Of a DNA stretch of 64,000 nucleotides, positions 19,770-56,900 are shown one piece after another. This stretch comes from Ramlibacter lithotrophicus (lineage in GTDB: Bacteria > Pseudomonadota > Gammaproteobacteria > Burkholderiales > Burkholderiaceae_C). How positions within the stretch are numbered: the stretch's first letter is position 1; each line of letters begins with the position of its first letter. The notes under the pieces were generated by a model that ran no database searches, had not been told where the DNA came from, and saw only the letters and a list, made by a program, of their open reading frames with translations. The position numbers and the translations under genes are program-made. The stretch is taken from assembly GCF_012184415.1 (NCBI RefSeq), contig NZ_VTOX01000010.1:124001-188000 (forward strand). The letters are read 5' to 3'.

Positions 19770-19989
19770 TGTCGGCGGCGCCGGCCGTGGTGCAGGTCGT
19801 TGAGTCAGCCGGTGATCAGGGTTGATAGTCACATTCGCAAGAGCCATCGCTCGCCATTGACCGCCATGAAGCATGCTACCCCCTTCGATGGGCGCCACCA
19901 CTTGCCGTGTCCATGGTCGACAAGGGCCGCGCGCCCCTGCGTTTCGATTTCATTCCCGGGACGAAGGCACTCCGATACACTTCGCGCCT

Positions 19990-20685
19990 ATGGAGGCCCT
20001 CCTCGGCGCTGGCATTTACCCACTATCCCAAGCTGCGCGCTTGGTAGGCGAGCCCGCGCGCAATGTGCGTCGTTGGCTCAAGGGCTATTCATGGAAGTAC
20101 CGTGATGGCCGATCCTCTTCTGGGCCGCTATGGCACACCCGCTATGAGGATGAAGAATTGCCCGGAGGCCTCGCGATCGGATTTCGCGATCTGCTTGAGC
20201 TGAGGATGGTCGCACAATTCGCGAGGTACGGCGTTCACCTAAAAGTGATCCGAGCCACGATAGACGCGGCGCGCAGTCACTTCCGCAGTGACTACCCGCT
20301 GACAAACCGGCGATTCTTGACTGACGGGAGGCGAATCTTCCTGGAGGCGGTGGAAGAAACAACCGGCGCTGAAAGGCTCATCGATGTCTTGGGTCGTCAA
20401 TTCGTTTTCAGCGAGGTCATCCGCCCCTCTCTGTACGCAGGTATTGAATATGACCGCTCGGGGGCTAGGCGCTGGTTCCCGGTCCATCGCAGTCGAATGA
20501 TTCTGTTGGATCCGGAAGTGCAATTTGGGACACCAATCATTGCCGATGCGGGGGTCCCGACCGATGCCATTTACGACGCATGGAAAGCGGAGAGCCGGGA
20601 CCAAGTTCGCGTGGCGCGAGCCTATGGCTTGACGCCGAAGATGGTGAGCGCCGCAGTAAACTTTGAGCAGCGCATTCGCGCATAG
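19990..20685 (+). CDS. DUF433-type antitoxin with N-terminal helix-turn-helix
   Basis: The 231-residue protein begins YPLSQAARLVGEPARNVRRWL, a MerR-like helix-turn-helix, and ends with a DUF433 segment (DPEVQFGTPIIADAGVPTDAI plus VARAYGLTPKMV). Such proteins are VapB45-like antitoxins paired with PIN-like toxins. The next gene, 14 bp away, encodes exactly that partner. Its codon use is less GC-rich than the flanking genes, which suggests acquisition. The ATG at 19990 begins the conserved region; upstream in-frame sequence looks non-coding. Confidence 0.8.
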   Translation: MEALLGAGIYPLSQAARLVGEPARNVRRWLKGYSWKYRDGRSSSGPLWHTRYEDEELPGGLAIGFRDLLELRMVAQFARYGVHLKVIRATIDAARSHFRSDYPLTNRRFLTDGRRIFLEAVEETTGAERLIDVLGRQFVFSEVIRPSLYAGIEYDRSGARRWFPVHRSRMILLDPEVQFGTPIIADAGVPTDAIYDAWKAESRDQVRVARAYGLTPKMVSAAVNFEQRIRA

Positions 20686-20699
20686 GCTCTCCTATTCCG

Positions 20700-21110
20700 T
20701 TGAAGTTCTTCTTCGACAACAACCTGCCTCCGGCGTTCGCGCACGCGCTTGCGGCCTTGTGCGACAGAGACCCTGACATCGCGGCTGTCATCCACCTCCG
20801 AGATCGATTTCCAGGCGATACGAAGGATCCGGTTTGGATTCCTGAGCTGGTTAAAGAGTTCGGTCCCTGGTACGTGCTATCGATCGACAAGTTCAAGAAG
20901 GACCATCGTGCTGAGCGCGAGGCGATTCGGAGGGCGGGCCTGACCGTCTACGTTCTGGACTCGCAGTGGTCAGGGCAGCCGTACTGGAGTAAGGCCGCTC
21001 GGCTCGTCCTGTGGTGGCCCACGCTCACCAAGCACGCATCACTATCGTCCGGTGGCGTGTACCGAGTGCCCTGGCGGTTCACCAATCAATCACGACTAGA
21101 AGCGTGCTAG
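20700..21110 (+). CDS. PIN-like domain toxin (VapC45-type), TTG start
   Basis: The 136-residue protein starts MKFFFDNNLPP from a TTG codon at 20700, the standard N-terminus of VapC45/DUF5615-like PIN proteins. The early aspartate D6, the LSIDKF aspartate and later acidic residues would form the metal site of an RNA-cleaving PIN fold. It follows the DUF433 antitoxin by 14 bp in the same operon. Gene order antitoxin-then-toxin is the usual one. Base composition is lower in GC than neighbours. Confidence 0.8.
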   Translation: MKFFFDNNLPPAFAHALAALCDRDPDIAAVIHLRDRFPGDTKDPVWIPELVKEFGPWYVLSIDKFKKDHRAEREAIRRAGLTVYVLDSQWSGQPYWSKAARLVLWWPTLTKHASLSSGGVYRVPWRFTNQSRLEAC

Positions 21111-28697: not shown

Positions 28698-29551
28698 GGC
28701 ACGGCAGCCGCTTGGCCCGACGCCAGCGACTTCAGCGACTCCGCACGCAACGTGGACCACAGGCGGCCGGTCACGCGGCCGAAGCTTTCCTGCGCGACGA
28801 TCGTGCTGTCGCGCTCGCGTGGCCAACCGGTGTCGACCAGGTCGAGGAACACGCCGGGCCGCGCCGACATGACGCCGACCCGGTCGGACAACATGGCGGC
28901 CTCGTCGAGCGCATGCGTGATCAGCAGGATGGTGGCGCCGGTGTCGCGCCACAACTTGAGCAGCTCGTCGCCCATGAGGAGCCGCGTCTGCTGGTCGAGG
29001 GCGCCGAACGGCTCGTCGAGCAGCAGCAGCCGCGGCCGCGTGACCAGGGTGCGAGCGATGCACAGGCGCTGGCGCATCCCGCCCGAGAGCTGCGCCGGAT
29101 AGGCCTTGACGAAACCGCGCAGGCCCATGAAGGACAGCGCATGCTCGACGCGCTCGCGGATCTCCGTCTCCGGCAGCCCGGCGCGGCGCAGGCCGAAGGC
29201 AGCGTTGTCGTACACGCTGAGCCAGGGGAAGCTGGCATCCTCCTGGAACACGATGCCCACGCCGTCGGGCACCTTGCCCGCCACCGGCTGCCCTTCGAAC
29301 TCCACGGTGCCGGCGGTGGGTACGGCCAGCCCCCCTAGCACGTCGAGCAGCGTCGACTTGCCGCAGCCGGAAGGTCCGACCACGGAGAAGAATTCGCCGC
29401 GCCGCAGGTCGAGGTCCAGCGGGCCCAGCGCGTGCACCGCCTGCCCACCGGGGCCGGCGGGATAGACCCGCGTCACCCCGCGCAGCCGCGCGTGGGGCTG
29501 GCCCCCGGCGGCGGCGTCCAGGTCCGCCGCACCGGTCAGGTCGCGGTTCAC
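28694..29551 (-). CDS. NitT/TauT-type ABC ATP-binding protein
   Basis: The 285-residue ATPase has Walker A GPSGCGKST, Q-loop VFQEDASFPWLSV, signature LSGGMRQRLCIARTL, Walker B LLLLDEPFGALD and the switch histidine ITHALDEA. The DEPFGALD and HALDEA forms are characteristic of the TauB/SsuB group. The GTG start at 29551 overlaps the binding-protein stop (GTGA), giving tight coupling. A further in-frame upstream extension within the binding-protein gene is not coding. Confidence 0.9.
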   Translation of the reverse strand: MNRDLTGAADLDAAAGGQPHARLRGVTRVYPAGPGGQAVHALGPLDLDLRRGEFFSVVGPSGCGKSTLLDVLGGLAVPTAGTVEFEGQPVAGKVPDGVGIVFQEDASFPWLSVYDNAAFGLRRAGLPETEIRERVEHALSFMGLRGFVKAYPAQLSGGMRQRLCIARTLVTRPRLLLLDEPFGALDQQTRLLMGDELLKLWRDTGATILLITHALDEAAMLSDRVGVMSARPGVFLDLVDTGWPRERDSTIVAQESFGRVTGRLWSTLRAESLKSLASGQAAAVP

Positions 29552-30525
29552 TTCTTGCTGCGCAGGTCGGCCGGCAGGTAGCTCTCGTCGATGACGGTCT
29601 TCCAGTCGAAGGGGCCTTCCGGAATCGCCTTGACCATCTGCAGGCCCTTGAGCATGAACTCCATGCCCTCGTAGTCGAACTCGCCGCGGCTCCAGTAGAC
29701 GCCCTTGGCGCCCAGCACGCTCTCGATGGCGGTCTTCGCCTGCTCGGGCGGGATCTTGTATTCGCGGCCCATGATGGGCGCCGCCTCGGCCGGATTGGAC
29801 TTGATGAACTCCACGCCCTTGCGCCGCGCCGCGATGATGCCCTTGATGACGTCCGGATTCTTCTGCAGGTAGTCGGTGCGCACGATGCCGACGGTCTGCG
29901 TCACGCGCGGCGCGATGTCGGTGGACCACCAGGCCACGCGGAAGTTGCCCTTCTCCTTGCTCCACACCGGCTCGGTCACGTAGGTCATGTCGACGCCGCC
30001 TTCGCGCAACGCCGTGAGGCCCGAGCCGATGCCGCCGACCGACTTGCGCTCCACGCTGCTGGCGAGGCCGTTGTTCTGGAGCATGACCGACGTGATGATG
30101 TCGGTCACCGACTTCGGGCTCGAATAGCCGAGCTTCTTGCCCTTCAGGTCGCCGAACTTCCTGAGGCTTTCGTCGTCCTTGCGGGTGATCCACACCTGGT
30201 CGGCCACCGACAGCACGCCGCCGTGCACGATGGTGAGCTTGACGCCTTGCTGGATGGCCGCGATCGCTGCCGGCAGCGCCACTTCGCCGTACGGAATCTC
30301 GGAAGCGAGCGCGTTGCGGATCGTGGTGCCGCCGCCGGCCGAAGTGATGAAGCCGGTGACGTCGAGCCCCGCGTCCGACTTGAACCAGCCCTTCTCCCGC
30401 GCGACGGCGAACGGCACGCCGTACATGCCGGTGCCGAAGTGGGTGACGGTGAGGTCCACCGCCAGCGCCGACGCTGCACCGAGAACGCCAGCGGCGAACG
30501 CCGCCGCACGAAGGAATCCGGACAT
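29548..30525 (-). CDS. NitT/TauT-type ABC substrate-binding protein
   Basis: The 325-residue precursor has a signal peptide ending in ASALAVD (about residue 22) and an NMT1/SsuA-like fold: YGVPFAVAREKGWFK, a GGGTTIRNALASEIPYGEVALPA segment and GYSSPKSVTDI at the ligand cleft. No ligand can be named from sequence. It is the first gene of the importer, with GGAG before its ATG. A short-chain dehydrogenase gene lies upstream on the same strand across 138 bp that contain a GC-rich tandem repeat near 30567-30600. Confidence 0.85.
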   Translation of the reverse strand: MSGFLRAAAFAAGVLGAASALAVDLTVTHFGTGMYGVPFAVAREKGWFKSDAGLDVTGFITSAGGGTTIRNALASEIPYGEVALPAAIAAIQQGVKLTIVHGGVLSVADQVWITRKDDESLRKFGDLKGKKLGYSSPKSVTDIITSVMLQNNGLASSVERKSVGGIGSGLTALREGGVDMTYVTEPVWSKEKGNFRVAWWSTDIAPRVTQTVGIVRTDYLQKNPDVIKGIIAARRKGVEFIKSNPAEAAPIMGREYKIPPEQAKTAIESVLGAKGVYWSRGEFDYEGMEFMLKGLQMVKAIPEGPFDWKTVIDESYLPADLRSKK

Positions 30526-31512: not shown

Positions 31513-32199
31513 TCACTTCCTGCCGCGTCCGCGGCGCGCCGGCGCGGCGGGCTTCGCCGCCCTCGCCTTGCCCGCCGGCGCCGCCCGCTGCGGCGCGGCC
31601 TGCTCGCGCGCCTGCTCCAGCCATTGCAGCGACTCCACGTGCAGCAGGAAGCGACGCAGGTAGTCCGGCGAGAGCTGGCGCATCAATTCCAGCGAATCAA
31701 GCACCAGCGCGTGCGAGTTGAGCGGCCCGGCGTTGGCCGGCTTGCGCAGCGCGGCCTGCGCCACCTGTTGCTGGCTGCGGCTGGCCGACCAGGCGCGCCG
31801 GAAGCGGCGCACGCTGGCCAGTTCGTCGGGTTGCTGCGATTCGCCCGCGAGCGCCGCGGCGTCCGCCGGCCTGGCGCCGCGGATGGAGCGGTTCAACTGG
31901 GCCAGCGCTTCGCTGCCCGCGCCGACCGGGACCGGCGCGGCGACCGGATGCAGGCCACGCACATTGACCGCCGCTGGCGGCGCCGCGGCGAGGCGCGCCG
32001 CATAGTCCGCGACGGCGGCCTCGAGCCGAGGCTGCAGGATGCGGCGAACCGCCTCCGGCTGCGCGGGCAGCCGCCGCGACAAGGCTTCGAGCCAATGGAA
32101 ACGGGCGGGATCGATACGCCACGCGCCTTCGCGGCGCATTGCCGTGAGCGCCGCCTGCAGCGCAAGGGAGGCCTCCTGCGGGGGCTGCGCGTCGCTCAT
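31513..32199 (-). CDS. DUF2894 domain protein
   Basis: The 228 residues match DUF2894, a family found almost only as the last member of this four-gene cluster in Burkholderiales and relatives. It is predicted soluble and helical, with a RRFRRAWSASRSQQQVAQAALRKP segment and a conserved GPLNSHALVLDSLELMRQLSPDYLRRFL region (about residues 158-185). The C-terminal 35 residues are Lys/Arg/Ala/Pro-rich and disordered. The start overlaps the OmpA-like gene stop by ATGA. A cytoplasmic partner of the motor-like proteins is inferred. Confidence 0.82.
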   Translation of the reverse strand: MSDAQPPQEASLALQAALTAMRREGAWRIDPARFHWLEALSRRLPAQPEAVRRILQPRLEAAVADYAARLAAAPPAAVNVRGLHPVAAPVPVGAGSEALAQLNRSIRGARPADAAALAGESQQPDELASVRRFRRAWSASRSQQQVAQAALRKPANAGPLNSHALVLDSLELMRQLSPDYLRRFLLHVESLQWLEQAREQAAPQRAAPAGKARAAKPAAPARRGRGRK

Positions 32200-32846
32200 C
32201 GCCGCTCGCCGGCCCCGCCCGAGGACCGCGGCACGGGGGCCATCTCCACCCGACGGTTCAGCGCGCGTCCGTGTTCGCTGGCGTTGGAGGCGACCGGCTG
32301 CTCGGCGCCGAAGGCCGCGGCGAACACCTGGGACGAGGGCATGCCTTCCTCGATCAGCGCCCGCGTGACGGTGAGGGCACGCTGCGCCGACAGCTCCAGG
32401 TTGTCGGCGAAGCGCTGGTTGCCTTCCTGGATGCGGCGGTCGTCGGTGAAGCCGCTGACCATCAGCATCTCGCCGCGCTCGCCCAGGTAGACCCGCAGCG
32501 GGTGCACCAGGCTCCTGAGCAACTGCTGGCCCTCCGGCCGCAGCTGGTCCGAGTTCACCGGAAACAGCACGCTGCCGCTGATGCCGATGCGGCCGTCGTT
32601 GAGCGTGACGCGACCGGACGCCAGCGGAATCGCCAGCGCCTTTTCCAGCGCGATGCGGCGCTGCTCCTCGACGCGGCGCTTGGCGACCTCGGCCTGCAGG
32701 CTCGCCACCAGGTCCATCTGCACCACCAGCACGCCGACCAGCACCAGCACGAATGCGCCCACCAGTCCCGACATCAGGTCGCCGAACACGGCCCAGACCG
32801 GCGCCGCCTGCTGCGCGCCGGCGTCGCTGTCGTCCAGCTCCATCAT
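32196..32846 (-). CDS. MotB/ZorB-like OmpA-domain membrane protein
   Basis: The 216-residue protein has one N-terminal membrane span (about residues 17-45) that opens with VFGDLMSGLVGAF. D23 is at the position of the proton-carrying aspartate of MotB, TolR and ZorB. A coiled-coil stalk follows, then an OmpA-like peptidoglycan-binding domain (about 85-205) with SGSVLFPVNSDQL, ELSAQRALTVTRAL and NRRVEM. This is the stator B-subunit plan. It overlaps its neighbours on both sides by four bases, so stoichiometric co-expression with the DUF802 protein is expected. Confidence 0.85.
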   Translation of the reverse strand: MMELDDSDAGAQQAAPVWAVFGDLMSGLVGAFVLVLVGVLVVQMDLVASLQAEVAKRRVEEQRRIALEKALAIPLASGRVTLNDGRIGISGSVLFPVNSDQLRPEGQQLLRSLVHPLRVYLGERGEMLMVSGFTDDRRIQEGNQRFADNLELSAQRALTVTRALIEEGMPSSQVFAAAFGAEQPVASNASEHGRALNRRVEMAPVPRSSGGAGERR

Positions 32847-34675
32847 CGGCGGGCCCCGTTGACCAGCGCGAGCGGCGTGGCCTGCGCCTGCCGCAGGTGC
32901 TCCACCAGGCCCTGCTGCGACGCGATGCTCAGGTCGATGACCTCGCGCGCCTGGGCCACGTAATAGGCCAGTTGTTCGTCGCTGCGTGCGGTGGAGCGCA
33001 ACAGCGATGCTTCGATGCGCTGCAGCGCGGCGATCACCTTGTCGTTGGCCGCCTGGAACAGCTGCATCCCCTGGCCGAAGGCTTCGCCGACGCTGGCCAG
33101 TTCGATCGAGCTGGCCGCGACATGCGCCGCCGCGTCGGCCGCGCGGCCCGCATGGGCCTGCAGCACCTGGTCGAAGCGCTCCGCCGCTTGGTCCAGCACA
33201 CCCGACGCGGATGCCACCAGCGTCTCGATCGCGGCCCGCTGCTCGCCCGCCGCGTGGTTCACCGCCTCCAGCAGCGAGCCCAGTTGTTCGAGCAGCGCCG
33301 TGCGCTCGCGCAGCGCCATGTTGTCGCGCTCGACCAGCCCGCTCGTTTCGTCGCGCAATCGGTCGATCACGCCGGCCGCCGCCTGCGCCACCTGCTCCAT
33401 CCGCTCGCCGTGCTGCTCCAGCCAACGCGCTTCGGTCGCCATGCGCGAGCGCACCAGCTCCTCGGAGCCGGCCAGCAGCTGCGTCCACGCCTGCAGCCTG
33501 CGCTGCTCCGAGTCGGCCTGCTGCGCCTGCGCCAGCGCCAGGCTGTCCTGGACCGCGGCCAGCAACGAGCCGCTGCGCTGCTCGAAGCCCTGCGTGAACG
33601 ACGCCAATGCCCGCTCCAGCGAGCCGGCGACGGCTTCGCCGGCTCGCGCCTGCTGCTGCAGGGCGGCGCGCCAGTGTTCCGACAGCTCGCGGCCGGTGGC
33701 GCCGAAGCGCTCCGACAGCGCGTCGACCTGCGCCTGCGCCGCATCGCCCAGCCTGGCATGCAGTTGCTGCGAGTCCTGCACGATCCGCGCCATGGCGGCT
33801 TCGACGACCGGCGTGATGCTCGCGCCCGCCGCGGCGGCGCCGGCGGCCAGGCTGTCCTGCAACGACGCACCGACGGCGCGCGCCAGTTCCTGGTAGGCCA
33901 GCGTCGCCTCGCGATGGAACTCGCCTTGCCGCGCCACCAGTTGTTCGTCGAGCTGACGCCCGCGCGCTTCGATGCGCTCCATCAGGGCTTCGAGCTGGTC
34001 GGCCACGCGCGGCAGCGCGCCGGCCTGCGCCTGCAGTGCGCGGAAGGTTTCGCGCCGCTGGTGCGACAGCGACAGCGGCCGCAGCACGGTGGCGATGCGC
34101 TGGTCCAGCTGCCGCGCCACCTCCAGCCGCTCGCGCCGGCTGATCGCGGACATCAGGCCCAGCATCGCCGAAGCCGCCACTCCGGCGACGGACGTGCCGA
34201 ACGACAGCCCCAGCCCCTTGATCGGCTCGGCCAGCGCGGCGCGCATGGCCTGCAGGTCGGCCGAGCCTTCCAGCGCGAACACCGCGCCCTGGAACGTCAC
34301 GATCATGCCGACGAAGGTGCCGAGCATTCCCAGCATCACCAGCAGGCCCACCAGGTACGGCGTGAGCGCCGGTCCGGGGAGCGCGCCGCGCTCTTCCTCG
34401 ATGCGCAGCCGCACCGCCTGGCGCAGCGACGCCGGCACGCGTTCCAGCCAGTGCCGCGGTTCGGCCAGGGGCTCGGGAATGTCGGCGAGCGCCGCCGACA
34501 ATCCGGCGTTCGCAGCGCGGAACTGCCGCAGCTCGAACGCGCCAAGCAGGTACACGCCTGCGATCGCGGCGGTCATGAAGAAGGCCAGCCAGTTCGAGCC
34601 GGCAAAGCCCAGGCCCACCCAGCCGACGAGCAGCAGGCCGATGGCAAAGGCCGCCGCGAAAAAACGCTTGCTCAT
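32843..34675 (-). CDS. DUF802 protein, MotA/TolQ-like with long coiled-coil tail
   Basis: The 610-residue protein has two N-terminal spans (about 3-23 and 29-48), then a MotA/TolQ/ExbB-like pair (VGLLVMLGMLGTFVGMIVTF about 108-127 and GLSFGTSVAGVAASAMLGLM about 157-176). Some 430 residues of almost uninterrupted Ala/Gln/Glu-rich helix follow, predicted coiled coil in the cytoplasm. The combination of a five-helix ion-channel core and a long intracellular tail is that of ZorA in Zorya systems, and differs from TolQ or ExbB, which lack the tail. The start overlaps the DUF3348 stop by ATGA. Confidence 0.82.
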   Translation of the reverse strand: MSKRFFAAAFAIGLLLVGWVGLGFAGSNWLAFFMTAAIAGVYLLGAFELRQFRAANAGLSAALADIPEPLAEPRHWLERVPASLRQAVRLRIEEERGALPGPALTPYLVGLLVMLGMLGTFVGMIVTFQGAVFALEGSADLQAMRAALAEPIKGLGLSFGTSVAGVAASAMLGLMSAISRRERLEVARQLDQRIATVLRPLSLSHQRRETFRALQAQAGALPRVADQLEALMERIEARGRQLDEQLVARQGEFHREATLAYQELARAVGASLQDSLAAGAAAAGASITPVVEAAMARIVQDSQQLHARLGDAAQAQVDALSERFGATGRELSEHWRAALQQQARAGEAVAGSLERALASFTQGFEQRSGSLLAAVQDSLALAQAQQADSEQRRLQAWTQLLAGSEELVRSRMATEARWLEQHGERMEQVAQAAAGVIDRLRDETSGLVERDNMALRERTALLEQLGSLLEAVNHAAGEQRAAIETLVASASGVLDQAAERFDQVLQAHAGRAADAAAHVAASSIELASVGEAFGQGMQLFQAANDKVIAALQRIEASLLRSTARSDEQLAYYVAQAREVIDLSIASQQGLVEHLRQAQATPLALVNGARR

Positions 34676-35391
34676 TGATGATGTTCCGCTTCGTTGTTGC
34701 AGGCCTCGACCAGGCCCGCCACGGGTTCCAGGCGCAGGTCCAGTTCCGCGCCGAGGGCGAGCCGCCAATCCCGCTCGAAGGCGTGCAGCCAGCCGCCCGG
34801 CTCGCGCCAGCGCGCCGGATCGTCCGGCGCGCCGGACGCGTCGATCGCCTGCCGGTGCTCGCGGCGCAACCGGTCGAAGCGCCGTTCGGCGATCGCGGCG
34901 ACGGTGGGCAGTACGCCCTGCTCGCGCGGGGCGAGCCATTGCTCGAGCGCCGCATCCAGCGCCGCGAGTTGCCGCAGCCGCGCCGACCGGCGGCAGATGG
35001 TCTGGCGCACGTGCTCGCGCAGGGGCCCGATCATCTGCTCCATGTGCCGCTGCAACTCCGCGTGGCGCTGGCGATATGGCGCGTAGCCGGCGTCGGGGTC
35101 CGGCAGCGGGTCCTGCGCGATCGCGTTGGCCAGCGCCGCCCGCGCGCGCTGCAGGTCCGCCTCCAGCAAGGACGACTGGCCGCGCGGCGCGGCCGTCGCT
35201 TCACGCGACGCGGGCGCCGGCGCGGTCACGGCCCTGATCGACTGGTGCGCGGCCTGCAATCCGATGGCGTCGAACGCGTTCAGCCACAGGCTCAGCCGCT
35301 CCGCGAAGTCCATGCCGGGCGCCTCGGCGGCCAGGGGGCGCCACTCGCCGAGCAGGCGAACGAGCCTCGAACTGCTGAACGTGCTCTGCAA
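34672..35391 (-). CDS. DUF3348 protein, probable TTG start
   Basis: The 239 residues match DUF3348 (SSSRLVRLLGEW, then DFAERLSLWLNAFDAIGLQAAHQSI), always the first gene of this cluster in Burkholderiales. It is predicted soluble and helical; function unknown. No ATG lies close to the conserved start. The TTG at 35391 (MQSTFSSSRL) is preceded by AGAGGA eight or nine bases upstream and fits homologue starts, so I use it. The stop overlaps the DUF802 start. The four-gene unit is transcribed leftward from the 335-bp intergenic region. Confidence 0.75.
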   Translation of the reverse strand: MQSTFSSSRLVRLLGEWRPLAAEAPGMDFAERLSLWLNAFDAIGLQAAHQSIRAVTAPAPASREATAAPRGQSSLLEADLQRARAALANAIAQDPLPDPDAGYAPYRQRHAELQRHMEQMIGPLREHVRQTICRRSARLRQLAALDAALEQWLAPREQGVLPTVAAIAERRFDRLRREHRQAIDASGAPDDPARWREPGGWLHAFERDWRLALGAELDLRLEPVAGLVEACNNEAEHHQ

Positions 35392-37880: not shown

Positions 37881-38004
37881 GGGGCCCGGAACGCGCGTCC
37901 GGCGGGGCGACCTGCTATACGATGGCCGTTCTCGGGGCGGCCGGTCCAGGCCGCGGCGGTCTCTCGCAGTCCGCGGCCCGCAGGCTACCGGAGCGGCGCG
38001 CTTG

Positions 38005-41000
38005 ATGAACACCGAACTGCAGTTCCTCGCCGGGGGCGGCGAGATGGGAGCGCGCATCCGCGCCATGGACTGGAGCCGCACGCCGCTGGGCGCGCCGCGG
38101 CAATGGCCCCAGAGCCTGCGCAGCGCCCTGAGCATCCTGCTGCCCTCCAAGGCACAGATCGCGCTGTTCTGGGGCGACGACCTCGTCACCCTCTACAACG
38201 ACGCCTACCGCCCGGTATTCGGCCGCAAGCATCCCGGCGCCCTCGGAAAGCCTATCCGCGAGGCCTGGGACGAGCTGTGGCGCGCCGGGCTCAAGGAGTT
38301 GTTCGACGACGTCCGCACGACCGGAGAGGCCTTCTGGGCGCGCGACCGCCTCTTCTTCATGGAGCGGCACGGCTACCTGGAAGAGACCTACTTCGACGTT
38401 TCCTACGACCCCGTCCGCGACGAGTCGGGCGCCGTGGGCGGCGTGTTCTGCATCGTGAGCGAAACGACCGGCCGGGTCGTCGGCGAGCGCCGCCTGCGCA
38501 CCTTGCGCGACCTCGGGCACATCGCCCAGCGCGCCCAGAGCGTGGCCGAGGTGCACGCCGGCGCGGCGCAGGTGCTGGGCGCCAACAGCCAGGACATTCC
38601 GTTCGCGCTGGTCTACGGGCTGGCGCCGGACGGGAAATCGGCCAGCTTGCTGGGCCGGCACGGCCTGGAGGCCGCCTCGGCCGCGGCACCAGCCGTGCTG
38701 CCGCTCGACGGCGGCGCCTGGCCGCTGGCAGCGGGACTGCAGGTGCTCGACGGCAACGAAGTCGCCGCGCTCGGCCCCTTGCACGGCGGGCCGTGGCCGG
38801 AGCCGGTCTGCCAGGTGGCCGTGGTGCCCTTCGCATTGCCGGACCAGCCGCCGCTGGGCTGGCTGGTGGCAGGGGTCAGCCCGCGCCGCCGCAGCGACGA
38901 GGACCACCGCGATTTCCTGCGGCTGGCCGGCGCCAACATCGCGGCCGCGGTCGCCAGCGTGCGCCACACCGAAGACGAGCGCCAGCGCGCACGGATGCTG
39001 GCCGAACTGGATCGTGCCAAGACGACGTTCTTCAGCAACGTGAGCCACGAGTTCCGCACGCCCCTCACGCTCATGCTGGGCCCGATGGAGGACGCGCTGG
39101 CCGACCGCGAGCAGGCGCTTCCGGCCGCGCAGCGCGAGCGGATCGAGCTCGCGCGCCGCAGTGCGCTGCGGCTGCAGAAGCTCGTGAACAGCCTGCTGGG
39201 CTTCACGCGCGTCGAGGCCGGACGCGCCCGCGCGCGCTATGCGCCGACCGACCTCGCGTCATGCACGGCCGAGCTCGCCAGCGCGTTCCGCTCCGCCATC
39301 GAGAAGGCCGGCCTGCGCCTGGCCATCGACTGCCCCCCGCTGCCGCAGCCGGTCTTCGTGGATCGCGACATGTGGGAGCAGCTGGTGCTCAACCTGCTGT
39401 CCAACGCCCTCAAGTTCACCTTCCACGGCGAGATCGCGGTGCGCCTGCGCGCCGTGGACGCCGACGTGGAGCTTCAGGTGCGCGACACCGGGATCGGGAT
39501 CGCGCCGGCGGACCGGCCGTACGTCTTCGAGCGCTTCCGCCGCGTCGAAGGCGCGCGCAGCCGCACCCACGAAGGCACGGGCATCGGACTGGCGCTGGTG
39601 AAGGAGCTCGCCCGGCTGCATGGCGGCAGCGTGGCCGTCGAGAGCGTGCCGGACCAGGGAAGCACTTTCACGGTGCGCATCCCGGCGGGGCGATCGCACC
39701 TGCCCATCGACGCCGTGACCCAGGAGGCGGAGCCGCGTGGCGGCGGCTGGGCCGCGTCCTTCGTCGAGGAAGCGTTGCGCTGGCTGCCCGACCCGCCTGC
39801 CGCGTTCGACGAAGTGGCGCAGTCCCCTGACGAGGCGGCCGCGCGCACGGCGCGGCGCGCCCGCGTCGTGCTGGCCGACGACAACGCCGACATGCGCGCC
39901 TATGTCGCCCGGCTGCTGGCGCCGGCCCATGACGTGGAGGCGGTCGCCGACGGCGAGGAGGCCCTGGCCGCCGTGCGGCGGCGGCGCCCGGACCTCGTGC
40001 TCTCCGACATCATGATGCCGCGCCGCAGCGGCCTGGAGCTGCTGCAGGCGCTGCGCGCCGATCCGGCCACCGCGGCCATCCCGTTCGTCCTGCTCTCCGC
40101 GCGCGCCGGCGAGGACTCGCGCATCGAAGGCCTGCTGGCCGGCGCCGACGACTACCTGGAAAAGCCCTTCGGCGCGCGCGAACTGCTGGCCCGCGTGGCG
40201 GCCCGCCTGGAGATCGCCAGGCTGCGCAGCGAGGCCGACGCGGTGCTGCGGCAGCGCGAGCAGCAGCTGCGCTTCATCACCGACCAGGTGCCGCTGCTGA
40301 TCCTCCAGATCGACGCGCAGCAGCGCTACCGCTTCGTCAATGCCGCGTTTGCCCGGCGCATCGGCATCCCGGCCGAGGCCCTGGTGGGCCGCCACCCGAG
40401 CGAGGTGATCGGCCAGTCCAGCTACGAGGTCTTCCAGCCGCTGGTGGAGCGCGCGCTGGCCGGCGAGCGCGTCGAATTCGAGGTGCTGGTGCCGTACCAG
40501 CGGATGGGCCCGCGCTGGATGCATGGCGTGTATGTCCCCGACGTGGCGCCGGACGGTCCGGTGCAAGGTTTCGTCGCGGTGCTGAACGACGTCACGGAAC
40601 GGCGGGCGGCCGAGGAGGAACTGCGCCTGCGCGAGGAGCGGCTGCGCGCCATCGTCGACACCACGCCGGAGTGCATCAAGCTCGTGGCCGCCGACGGCAC
40701 GCTGCTGCAGATGAATCCGTCCGGCCTGGAGATGGTGGGCGCGCCGTCGGCGGAGGCCGTGGTCGGCCACAGCGTCTACGCCCTGATCGCGCCCGAACAC
40801 CGGGACGCGTTCCGCCGCCTCAACGAGTGGGTGTGCCGCGGCGAGCGCGGCCGCCTGGAGTTCGACATCGTGGGGCTGCGCGGCGAACGCCGGCGCATGG
40901 CCACCCATGCGGTCCCGCTGCGGATGCCCGACGGGCGCAACGCGCAGCTGTCGCTGACCCGCGACATCACGCTGCAGCGCGAGGCCGAGGACCTGCTGCG

Positions 41001-42123
41001 CGAGGCGGATCGGCGCAAGGACGAGTTCATCTCCATCCTGGCGCACGAACTGCGCAACCCGCTGGCGCCGCTGCGCAACGCCCTGCACCTGCTGCGCGCG
41101 CGCCGGGTCGAGCCCGCCGCCGCCGACCGCCTGCATGCGGTCATGGAACGCCAGACGAATCACCTGGTGCGCCTGGTCGACGACCTGCTGGAGATGTCGC
41201 GCATCAACCGCGGCGACTTCGAGCTGCGCCAGGAAGCGGTGGACGCCGCAGCCGTCGCACGGCACGCGATCGAGACCAGCGAACCGCTGATCCGCGAGTG
41301 CGGACATCGCCTCGACGTGGACCTGCCCGACGAGCCGCTGCCGCTGGCGGGGGACGCCGTCCGGCTGGCGCAGGTGCTGGCCAACCTGTTGAACAACGCG
41401 GCGCGGTACACCGACCGCGGCGGCAGGATCACCTTGCGCGGCCGGCGCCACGGCGCGGAAGCCGTGCTCTCGGTCGCCGACAGCGGCATCGGCTTCGATC
41501 CCGCCGAGGGGGCCTGGCTGTTCGGGATGTTCACGCGCGGGGATCGTTCCACGGGGCTTGGAATCGGCCTGGCCCTGGCCAGGAAACTGGTGCAGATGCA
41601 CGGCGGCAGCATCGAGGCGCGCAGCGAGGGCCTGGGCCGGGGCGCGGAGTTCATCGTGCGGCTGCCGCTGGCGGCGCAGGCGGCGCTCGAGCCGGCCGCG
41701 GCCGCCCCCGAACCGGAAGCTGGTGCGGCTGCCGCGATCGGGCCGGTAAAGGTCCTGGTGGTGGACGACAACCACGACGCCGCCGACACGATGGAGATGC
41801 TGCTGCGGGTGCTGGGGGCCCAGGTGCGGGTGGCGCGTGACGGGCCGCAGGCGCTGGAGGCTTTCATGCCGTTCGACCCCGATCTGGTCCTGCTGGACAT
41901 CGGGATGCCCGGCATGGATGGCTACGAGGTCGCGCGCGCGCTGCGCGGACGCCACGCCGGTCACCGGGCCCGCATGGTGGCGCTCACGGGCTGGGGCCAG
42001 GAGGCCGATCGCCAGCGTGGGCGCGAGGCGGGATTCGACCATCACCTGGTCAAGCCGGCCGACATCGCCGCGATCCAGGCGCTGCTCGCCGAACTCAGTG
42101 GCGCGGCGGCGGCACGAGCGTGA
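38005..42123 (+). CDS. double hybrid sensor histidine kinase
   Basis: This 1372-residue cytoplasmic protein has two complete kinase modules. In order: an N-terminal PAS-like sensor (about 30-160), a GAF-like region (about 165-325), a DHp with H348 (SNVSHEFRTPL), an ATPase domain with NALKF and GTGIGLALVK, a receiver with phospho-acceptor near D668 (LVLSDIMMP), two PAS domains (about 755-1000), a second DHp with H1013 (AHELRNPL), a second ATPase domain (LGIGLALARK) and a C-terminal receiver near D1299 (LVLLDIGMPGMDGYE). No membrane span is seen. The output partner is not adjacent. ATG at 38005 is preferred to TTG at 38002. Confidence 0.9.
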   Translation: MNTELQFLAGGGEMGARIRAMDWSRTPLGAPRQWPQSLRSALSILLPSKAQIALFWGDDLVTLYNDAYRPVFGRKHPGALGKPIREAWDELWRAGLKELFDDVRTTGEAFWARDRLFFMERHGYLEETYFDVSYDPVRDESGAVGGVFCIVSETTGRVVGERRLRTLRDLGHIAQRAQSVAEVHAGAAQVLGANSQDIPFALVYGLAPDGKSASLLGRHGLEAASAAAPAVLPLDGGAWPLAAGLQVLDGNEVAALGPLHGGPWPEPVCQVAVVPFALPDQPPLGWLVAGVSPRRRSDEDHRDFLRLAGANIAAAVASVRHTEDERQRARMLAELDRAKTTFFSNVSHEFRTPLTLMLGPMEDALADREQALPAAQRERIELARRSALRLQKLVNSLLGFTRVEAGRARARYAPTDLASCTAELASAFRSAIEKAGLRLAIDCPPLPQPVFVDRDMWEQLVLNLLSNALKFTFHGEIAVRLRAVDADVELQVRDTGIGIAPADRPYVFERFRRVEGARSRTHEGTGIGLALVKELARLHGGSVAVESVPDQGSTFTVRIPAGRSHLPIDAVTQEAEPRGGGWAASFVEEALRWLPDPPAAFDEVAQSPDEAAARTARRARVVLADDNADMRAYVARLLAPAHDVEAVADGEEALAAVRRRRPDLVLSDIMMPRRSGLELLQALRADPATAAIPFVLLSARAGEDSRIEGLLAGADDYLEKPFGARELLARVAARLEIARLRSEADAVLRQREQQLRFITDQVPLLILQIDAQQRYRFVNAAFARRIGIPAEALVGRHPSEVIGQSSYEVFQPLVERALAGERVEFEVLVPYQRMGPRWMHGVYVPDVAPDGPVQGFVAVLNDVTERRAAEEELRLREERLRAIVDTTPECIKLVAADGTLLQMNPSGLEMVGAPSAEAVVGHSVYALIAPEHRDAFRRLNEWVCRGERGRLEFDIVGLRGERRRMATHAVPLRMPDGRNAQLSLTRDITLQREAEDLLREADRRKDEFISILAHELRNPLAPLRNALHLLRARRVEPAAADRLHAVMERQTNHLVRLVDDLLEMSRINRGDFELRQEAVDAAAVARHAIETSEPLIRECGHRLDVDLPDEPLPLAGDAVRLAQVLANLLNNAARYTDRGGRITLRGRRHGAEAVLSVADSGIGFDPAEGAWLFGMFTRGDRSTGLGIGLALARKLVQMHGGSIEARSEGLGRGAEFIVRLPLAAQAALEPAAAAPEPEAGAAAAIGPVKVLVVDDNHDAADTMEMLLRVLGAQVRVARDGPQALEAFMPFDPDLVLLDIGMPGMDGYEVARALRGRHAGHRARMVALTGWGQEADRQRGREAGFDHHLVKPADIAAIQALLAELSGAAAARA

Positions 42124-55862: not shown

Positions 55863-56900
55863 CTACCTGCCCTGCTGCAGGATCCGCGCCAGCTGCTTTG
55901 CCTCGTCGAGGCTTTCCAGGATCTTGTTGGTGTACATCTCCTGGGGCGCCGGCTTCTTCGGGATCTCCTCGCTGAACACCTCGATGGTGTCCTTCCACCT
56001 GGCGTCGGTCATCCAGCCGAAGCGCTCGCCGTATTCCGGCGACCTGTAGATGTCGTAGATGATCCCGAGCTTGCGGGTCTCCAGCTTGAGGTCGCGGTCG
56101 GGCGAGACCTTGATCACTTCGGCGACCGCCTCCTGCATGTGGTCCTTGGTCCAGATCAGGCTCTTGAGCGTGGCGCGCAGGAAGCGCTTGACCAGGTCCG
56201 GGTTGGACTTGAGCAGCTGCTCGCTGGTATAGATCACGGTGCCGTAGTTGTTCAAGCCGAAGTTCTTCAGCGGCATGACGTTGACCGGGAAACCCTTGTC
56301 CTCCAGCGTCAGCGCCTGGCCGTAGCTGAATCCGTAGATCGCGTCGATCTGCCCGGCGGCGAGCATCTGGACCTCGGAGCCGCGGGCGACGTTCACGTAC
56401 TCGATGTCCTTGCGGGTCAGGCCCCCGGATTTCAGCAAGGGATCGAGCTGCGCCCGGACGTTGGCCTGGAACCAGCTGAGCTTCTTGCCCTTCAGCTGTT
56501 TCGGTTCGGCAATGCCGCTCTTCTTCAGCGTGATCACGGCCACCGGCGTGTCGGGCTGGTCGATCATGATCGCCACGATCGGCACGCCCGAGGCCTTCGC
56601 CTTCACGAAGCTGTCGATGTTGGCGACGCCGAAGTGCTCGCGGCCGCTGGCGATGAACACCTCGTTCTGCTGTCCGCCGGAGGGCGGACGGATCTCCAGC
56701 TCGATGCCTTCCTTGGCGTAGATGCCTTGCGCCTTGCCGCCGAAATACTGGGCGTGCATGCCCCATGGCGTGAAGTTGATGCGCATGATGACGTTGTCCG
56801 CGGCGCTGGCGGGACCCGCGCCGAAGAGGCTGCCGGTCAGCAGCAGGGACCCCGCCGCCAGGACGCGCCGGCGTGCGGCCGATGTGGGAACCGTGGTCAT
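55863..56900 (-). CDS. NitT/TauT-type ABC substrate-binding protein 2 (NMT1-like)
   Basis: The 345-residue precursor has an N-terminal RRRVLAAGSLLL that could be a twin-arginine or ordinary signal, cleaved near AAD. It shares long identical stretches with the binding protein at 62549-63589 (IMRINFTPWGMHAQYFGG, IRPPS-GQQNEVFI, VNVARGSEVQMLAAGQ and LKSNPDLVKRF). It is an obvious paralogue. No separate ATPase or permease accompanies it, so it probably feeds the same channel with a different or broader ligand range. Confidence 0.85.
   Translation of the reverse strand: MTTVPTSAARRRVLAAGSLLLTGSLFGAGPASAADNVIMRINFTPWGMHAQYFGGKAQGIYAKEGIELEIRPPSGGQQNEVFIASGREHFGVANIDSFVKAKASGVPIVAIMIDQPDTPVAVITLKKSGIAEPKQLKGKKLSWFQANVRAQLDPLLKSGGLTRKDIEYVNVARGSEVQMLAAGQIDAIYGFSYGQALTLEDKGFPVNVMPLKNFGLNNYGTVIYTSEQLLKSNPDLVKRFLRATLKSLIWTKDHMQEAVAEVIKVSPDRDLKLETRKLGIIYDIYRSPEYGERFGWMTDARWKDTIEVFSEEIPKKPAPQEMYTNKILESLDEAKQLARILQQGR

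Follow-up and report, generated by a model that had tools for sequence, protein, structure and literature searches.

The four-gene operon of Ramlibacter lithotrophicus described here is a further copy of the already described Zorya type III, ordinary in kind. Its best explanation, and in our judgement probably the right one, is a chromosomal type III Zorya operon directed against phages; phage protection has been published for a relative. In the excerpts of PMC8565338 that concern it, Payne et al. (2021) gave the name Zorya type III to zorAB with DUF3348 and DUF2894 genes on either side (6,401 counted), described DUF3348 and DUF2894 as substitutes for ZorC/D or ZorE, and proposed that these partners regulate ZorAB. 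Each of the three new system types significantly reduced plaquing of at least one phage in E. coli BL21-AI, and the type III system tested, from Stenotrophomonas nitritireducens, protected E. coli against phage (PMC8565338). The initial annotation had recognised an ion-motor plan, a likeness to ZorAB and, in place of ZorC/D or ZorE, DUF3348 and DUF2894. Plan and likeness are borne out, and the replacement is the same one that was published as type III; the labels 'unknown purpose' and 'uncharacterised' did not hold, as the type was named in 2021 and tested against phage (PMC8565338). An excerpt of PMC11953036 lists type III Zorya in a Variovorax. Beyond PMC8565338, PMC11953036, PMC11890865 and PMC13064858, we found no functional studies of DUF3348 or DUF2894 in a search that had most subscription journals outside its reach. 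The partner names are swapped between sources: DUF3348 is ZorF and DUF2894 ZorG in PMC8565338, while ZorF3 is DUF2894 and ZorG3 is DUF3348 in PADLOC-DB. The same excerpts of PMC8565338 print 'zorBC' where zorAB is apparently intended.

The four genes lie on the minus strand at positions 31513-35391 of the window, the stretch of 64,000 nucleotides that was analysed, and are transcribed in the order DUF3348, DUF802/ZorA, OmpA/ZorB and DUF2894 (Table 1). That they are joined by ATGA overlaps, as first annotated, was confirmed at all three joints, each with an overlap of 4 bases. ZorA has 610 amino acids, ZorB 216 and DUF2894 228. The DUF3348 gene begins with a TTG start codon, 8 bases upstream of which stands AGAGG; in an alignment, the first residue falls on the start methionine of many homologues.

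Table 1. Features of the operon, with their positions in the window and the supporting evidence.
Feature	Position	Strand	Evidence
DUF3348 protein, first gene	34672..35391	-	PF11828 2.9e-56; PDLC00658 3.1e-59; predicted helical bundle, pLDDT 90.0
ZorA3, MotA/TolQ-like channel core and long cytoplasmic tail	32843..34675	-	PDLC00648 2.5e-218; PF05650 4.1e-14 at residues 320-372; hydropathy
ZorA tail end, residues 564-583 (RSDEQLAYYVAQAREVIDLS), proposed docking tip	32927..32986	-	conservation among distinct ZorA3
ZorB3, one membrane helix with D23 and OmpA-like peptidoglycan-binding domain	32196..32846	-	PDLC00651 1.9e-108; PF00691 7.7e-18
DUF2894 protein, last gene, basic C-terminal tail	31513..32199	-	PF11445 1.8e-47; PDLC00652 8e-55

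For all four proteins, the best PADLOC model is a type III model, namely ZorA3, ZorB3, ZorF3 and ZorG3 (E values in Table 1); for ZorA, the best model outside type III is ZorA1 at 3.4e-11. The composition of the operon follows the published definition: a ZorA with a MotA/TolQ-like core and a long tail that has ZorA3 as its top match, a ZorB with a membrane aspartate and an OmpA-like peptidoglycan-binding domain, and DUF3348 and DUF2894 genes flanking the pair, as identified with Pfam and by gene order in relatives. Models of DUF3348 and DUF2894 are the only ones that these two remaining genes match, to the exclusion of ZorC, ZorD or ZorE, and PADLOC found no match to the ZorC, ZorD and ZorE models among ten neighbouring frames, which are part of the frames in the window. 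NCBIfam gives ZorA 36.1 bits against a cut-off of 100 for antiphage_ZorA_2 (NF033915), short of the threshold, and identifies ZorB as the 'hypothetical protein' PRK09040 (355 bits, cut-off 194); the name of type III is absent among the NCBIfam matches of the operon proteins.

The architecture is widely retained. Among the named loci of other genomes, 74/80 carry the complete set in the same order and on the same strand, which exceeds what chance would yield, and the other six have later genes only, with the matched gene near the start of the available stretch. Overlaps of 4 bases, computed in relatives with start codons chosen by script, are found at the DUF3348/ZorA joint in 76/104 distinct loci, at the ZorA/ZorB joint in 44/106 (1 base in 37 more) and at the ZorB/DUF2894 joint in 38/100 (8 bases in 31 more). 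In the host family, DUF3348 and DUF2894 are present in the identical 16 of 60 genomes, all of them with ZorB3 matches below 1e-90; four further genomes have ZorB3 matches of 3e-21 to 2e-25 that cover the profile only from position 53 onward. Protein distances (Spearman, Mantel test) correlate at 0.84 for ZorA-ZorB and 0.79 for ZorA-DUF3348 across 22 genomes, and at 0.64 for ZorA-DUF2894 across 19. For species history, the values in the 22 genomes are 0.35 for rpoB-ZorA, 0.33 for rpoB-ZorB, 0.42 for polA-ZorA and 0.62 for rpoB-polA, and the correlations together indicate joint inheritance of the four genes, tied less strongly, though genuinely, to the history of the species.

Hydropathy peaks number four in ZorA (residues 5-23, 29-47, 108-126 and 157-175) and one in ZorB (24-42), and D23 of ZorB sits at the start of this helix. 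The stator aspartate and the peptidoglycan-binding domain that the initial annotation had assigned to the OmpA protein hold up well: D23 is identical in 107/107 distinct ZorB, as are T134, D135, R156 and R199 in the peptidoglycan domain, which Pfam recognises as PF00691. On the side of the channel, G116, G119, T120 and S162 of ZorA are identical in 102/102 distinct proteins and T127 in 101/102. The description of the second protein as a DUF802 with a MotA/TolQ-like core and a long tail needs trimming, since Pfam DUF802 (PF05650) spans just 53 residues; the core itself stands through the PADLOC ZorA models, on which the channel assignment rests because PF01618 (MotA_ExbB) scores 15.1 bits on residues 1-209, below its cut-off of 22.9. 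A profile of the ZorA3 core gives 9.7-20.9 bits to eight type I-like ZorA and at most 9.1 bits to the genome's own five MotA/ExbB-type proteins, a placement by score comparison in which hardly any gap separates the lowest-scoring ZorA from the top own protein. Taken together, the core-profile and PADLOC scores favour a ZorA-like rather than a MotA/ExbB-type identity. Among solved structures, ZorB has its best matches in MotB proteins.

The tail of ZorA varies greatly in length. The segment equivalent to residues 301-420 has 19 to 459 residues in relatives, that equivalent to 421-540 has 109 to 327, and the end equivalent to 541-610 has 59 to 78. Within this end, 17 of the 20 positions of 564-583 are identical in at least 98/102 distinct ZorA3. 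On sequence grounds, the tail is a putative rod of variable length with a near-invariant tip, and it is this combination that leads us to propose the tip as a docking site. PADLOC matches the piece 421-610 with ZorA3 models only, even at an E value of 5. A profile of the tail end recovered 8/15 type III-like ZorA in a second set, whose loci are short and may include cut ones, and none of nine type I-like ZorA loci, one of which is split over two frames.

What, then, are the two partners? DUF3348 is predicted to be a compact helical bundle (pLDDT 90.0, pTM 0.86), and DUF2894 to be helical with lower certainty (pLDDT 78.9, pTM 0.45). The last 25 residues of DUF2894 carry a net charge of at least +4 in 75/83 distinct proteins, compared with 2/104 for DUF3348 and 55/109 for ZorB; the end of ZorB, too, is often basic, which makes for no more than a partial contrast. 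Fold comparison of the partner proteins returned no informative relative, nuclease families matched neither of them even at an E value of 5, and no nuclease family was recognised anywhere in the operon. The DUF2894 family search also scored above its cut-off in the control genome Corynebacterium glutamicum, far outside the known range of type III Zorya.

The surroundings of the operon are no clear defence island. Downstream, Pfam identifies an SDR gene followed by an NMT1-type ABC importer, whose NMT1/THI5-like substrate-binding protein (29548-30495) is accompanied by an ABC ATPase and a permease; a second NMT1/THI5-like protein lies at 55863-56900. Upstream are a SnoaL-like gene, a ferredoxin, a KTSC protein and a large hybrid histidine kinase (38002-42123, 1373 residues; PAS_4, HisKA, HATPase and a response-regulator part by Pfam on the scanned piece). 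Among the ten neighbouring frames, PADLOC matches are confined to a methyltransferase (mad2 model 2e-22; MTase_II 7e-4) and to the two-component parts of the histidine kinase, the latter likely through shared domains, and Pfam finds no flagellar genes. Elsewhere in the window (19873-21110), where GC is lower (0.63), a PIN_10 protein is encoded after a DUF433 protein; by resemblance, the two are presumably a toxin-antitoxin pair.

DUF3348 occurs in 8/276 genomes of the host class, 16/60 of the host family and 30/55 of the genus Ramlibacter; among good assemblies of the genus (at least 90% complete, at most 5% contaminated), it is present in 27 of 45 and absent from 18. The system is thus common in the host family: 16/60 genomes have DUF3348, set against 9/150 with a clear match (E value of 1e-20 or better) to the one type I ZorA model that was used. 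Two host-family genomes (G009 and G019) contain both DUF3348 and a clear type I-like ZorA (1.3e-37 and 3.1e-26). Across 20 genomes of the genus, one of them at 9% contamination, at least one gene within 6 kb of the operon is shared in 44/190 genome pairs and at least two in 9 (mean 0.31); around polA, the sole control and possibly an unusually stable locus, the counts are 190/190 and 180 (mean 3.61). Phage records hold no DUF3348 (0/50,697), and ZorB at 1e-40 appears in 27/72,556 plasmid records, all of them replicons of 366 kb to 3.5 Mb, so that no vehicle of movement was seen.

Could such a common operon serve a more general purpose? For a defence system, 27/45 good assemblies is an unusually high frequency, and according to an excerpt of PMC13064858, type III Zorya is persistent in R. 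solanacearum and there exemplifies a highly conserved system; together, these would also fit a general role. A housekeeping envelope motor with a Tol- or Ton-like task, conferring phage resistance mainly upon over-expression, would agree as well with the near absence of ZorB from plasmids, the lack of DUF3348 in phage records and the invariant motor residues. However, the genes are missing from two fifths of the good genus assemblies and from 44/60 family genomes, and the genome has five other MotA/ExbB-type proteins. The incomplete presence in the genus and the mostly differing neighbours, so unlike those of polA, disfavour a fixed housekeeping role, which we consider decidedly unlikely; of the two options that the initial annotation had left side by side, defence is favoured over housekeeping. 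A flagellar stator (MotAB) or a nutrient-transport motor (ExbBD, TolQR) would account for the OmpA/MotB-like domain and the MotB proteins as best structural matches of ZorB, but the MotA_ExbB model below its cut-off, the core-profile scores, albeit with a small margin at their low end, and the lack of a flagellar gene in the ten neighbouring frames make such a motor very improbable indeed.

A defence of another kind deserves more weight, though we still hold it to be somewhat unlikely: the motor might depolarise the infected cell in an abortive infection, with DUF3348 and DUF2894 doing nothing but gating it. Excerpts of PMC8565338 report such a proton-channel proposal for ZorAB and suggest the partners as regulators, and the failure of both partners to match a nuclease family fits. 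Types I and II, on the other hand, defend through nuclease partners and the tail (excerpt of PMC11890865), and the conserved ZorA tip, like the basic tail of DUF2894, suggests that something in the cytoplasm is targeted and that gating is not the whole task.

Under the preferred reading, a type III Zorya defence operon, ZorA and ZorB would assemble at 5:2 into an ion-driven motor that ZorB anchors to peptidoglycan, with D23 as the probable ion-carrying residue, to judge by the invariant residues and by the complexes solved for types I and II. In the cytoplasm, the C-termini of ZorA may come together as a rod, which would rotate or switch state upon disturbance of the envelope by a phage, and the tip of this rod could dock a partner, most likely the compact DUF3348 protein. 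DUF2894 may contact nucleic acid via its conserved helical motif and basic tail and so link the tip with DNA, be it incoming or the host's own. As neither small partner matches a nuclease family, they may act mechanically or recruit another enzyme. At its boldest, this would make type III Zorya a nuclease-free mechanical defence, in which the motor turns the rod, the tip carries DUF3348, the DUF2894 tail grips DNA and the torque blocks entry or replication of phage DNA; we think this version unlikely. The type III partners match no nuclease or helicase family, unlike those of types I and II. The ZorA tip and the DUF2894 basic tail are new handles on this mechanism and, with the DUF3348 bundle, provide three definite targets for mutagenesis.

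Finally, we would place the operon among related motors. MotAB, TolQR and ExbBD each pair a channel subunit with a one-helix partner that carries an essential aspartate. The operon likewise has a channel subunit and a one-helix partner with an aspartate; it differs in a ZorA below the MotA_ExbB cut-off, a long tail and two extra partners. Zorya types I and II, solved as 5:2 ZorA:ZorB complexes in which ZorB D24, the peptidoglycan domain and its binding, and the ZorA tail are needed (excerpts of PMC11890865), share with it the ZorA/ZorB core, the invariant aspartate, the OmpA domain and the long ZorA tail, whereas DUF3348 and DUF2894 stand in place of ZorC/ZorD or ZorE and the tail end of type III ZorA is without counterpart in the nine type I-like loci. 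Compared with its type III relatives, the Ramlibacter copy has no distinguishing feature that we found; its ZorA is rather short, at 610 amino acids against a median of 719 (range 530-1011) in 102 distinct relatives. With Zorya type III as defined in PMC8565338, it shares the same four families and the same plan, in which zorAB stands between the DUF3348 and DUF2894 genes.
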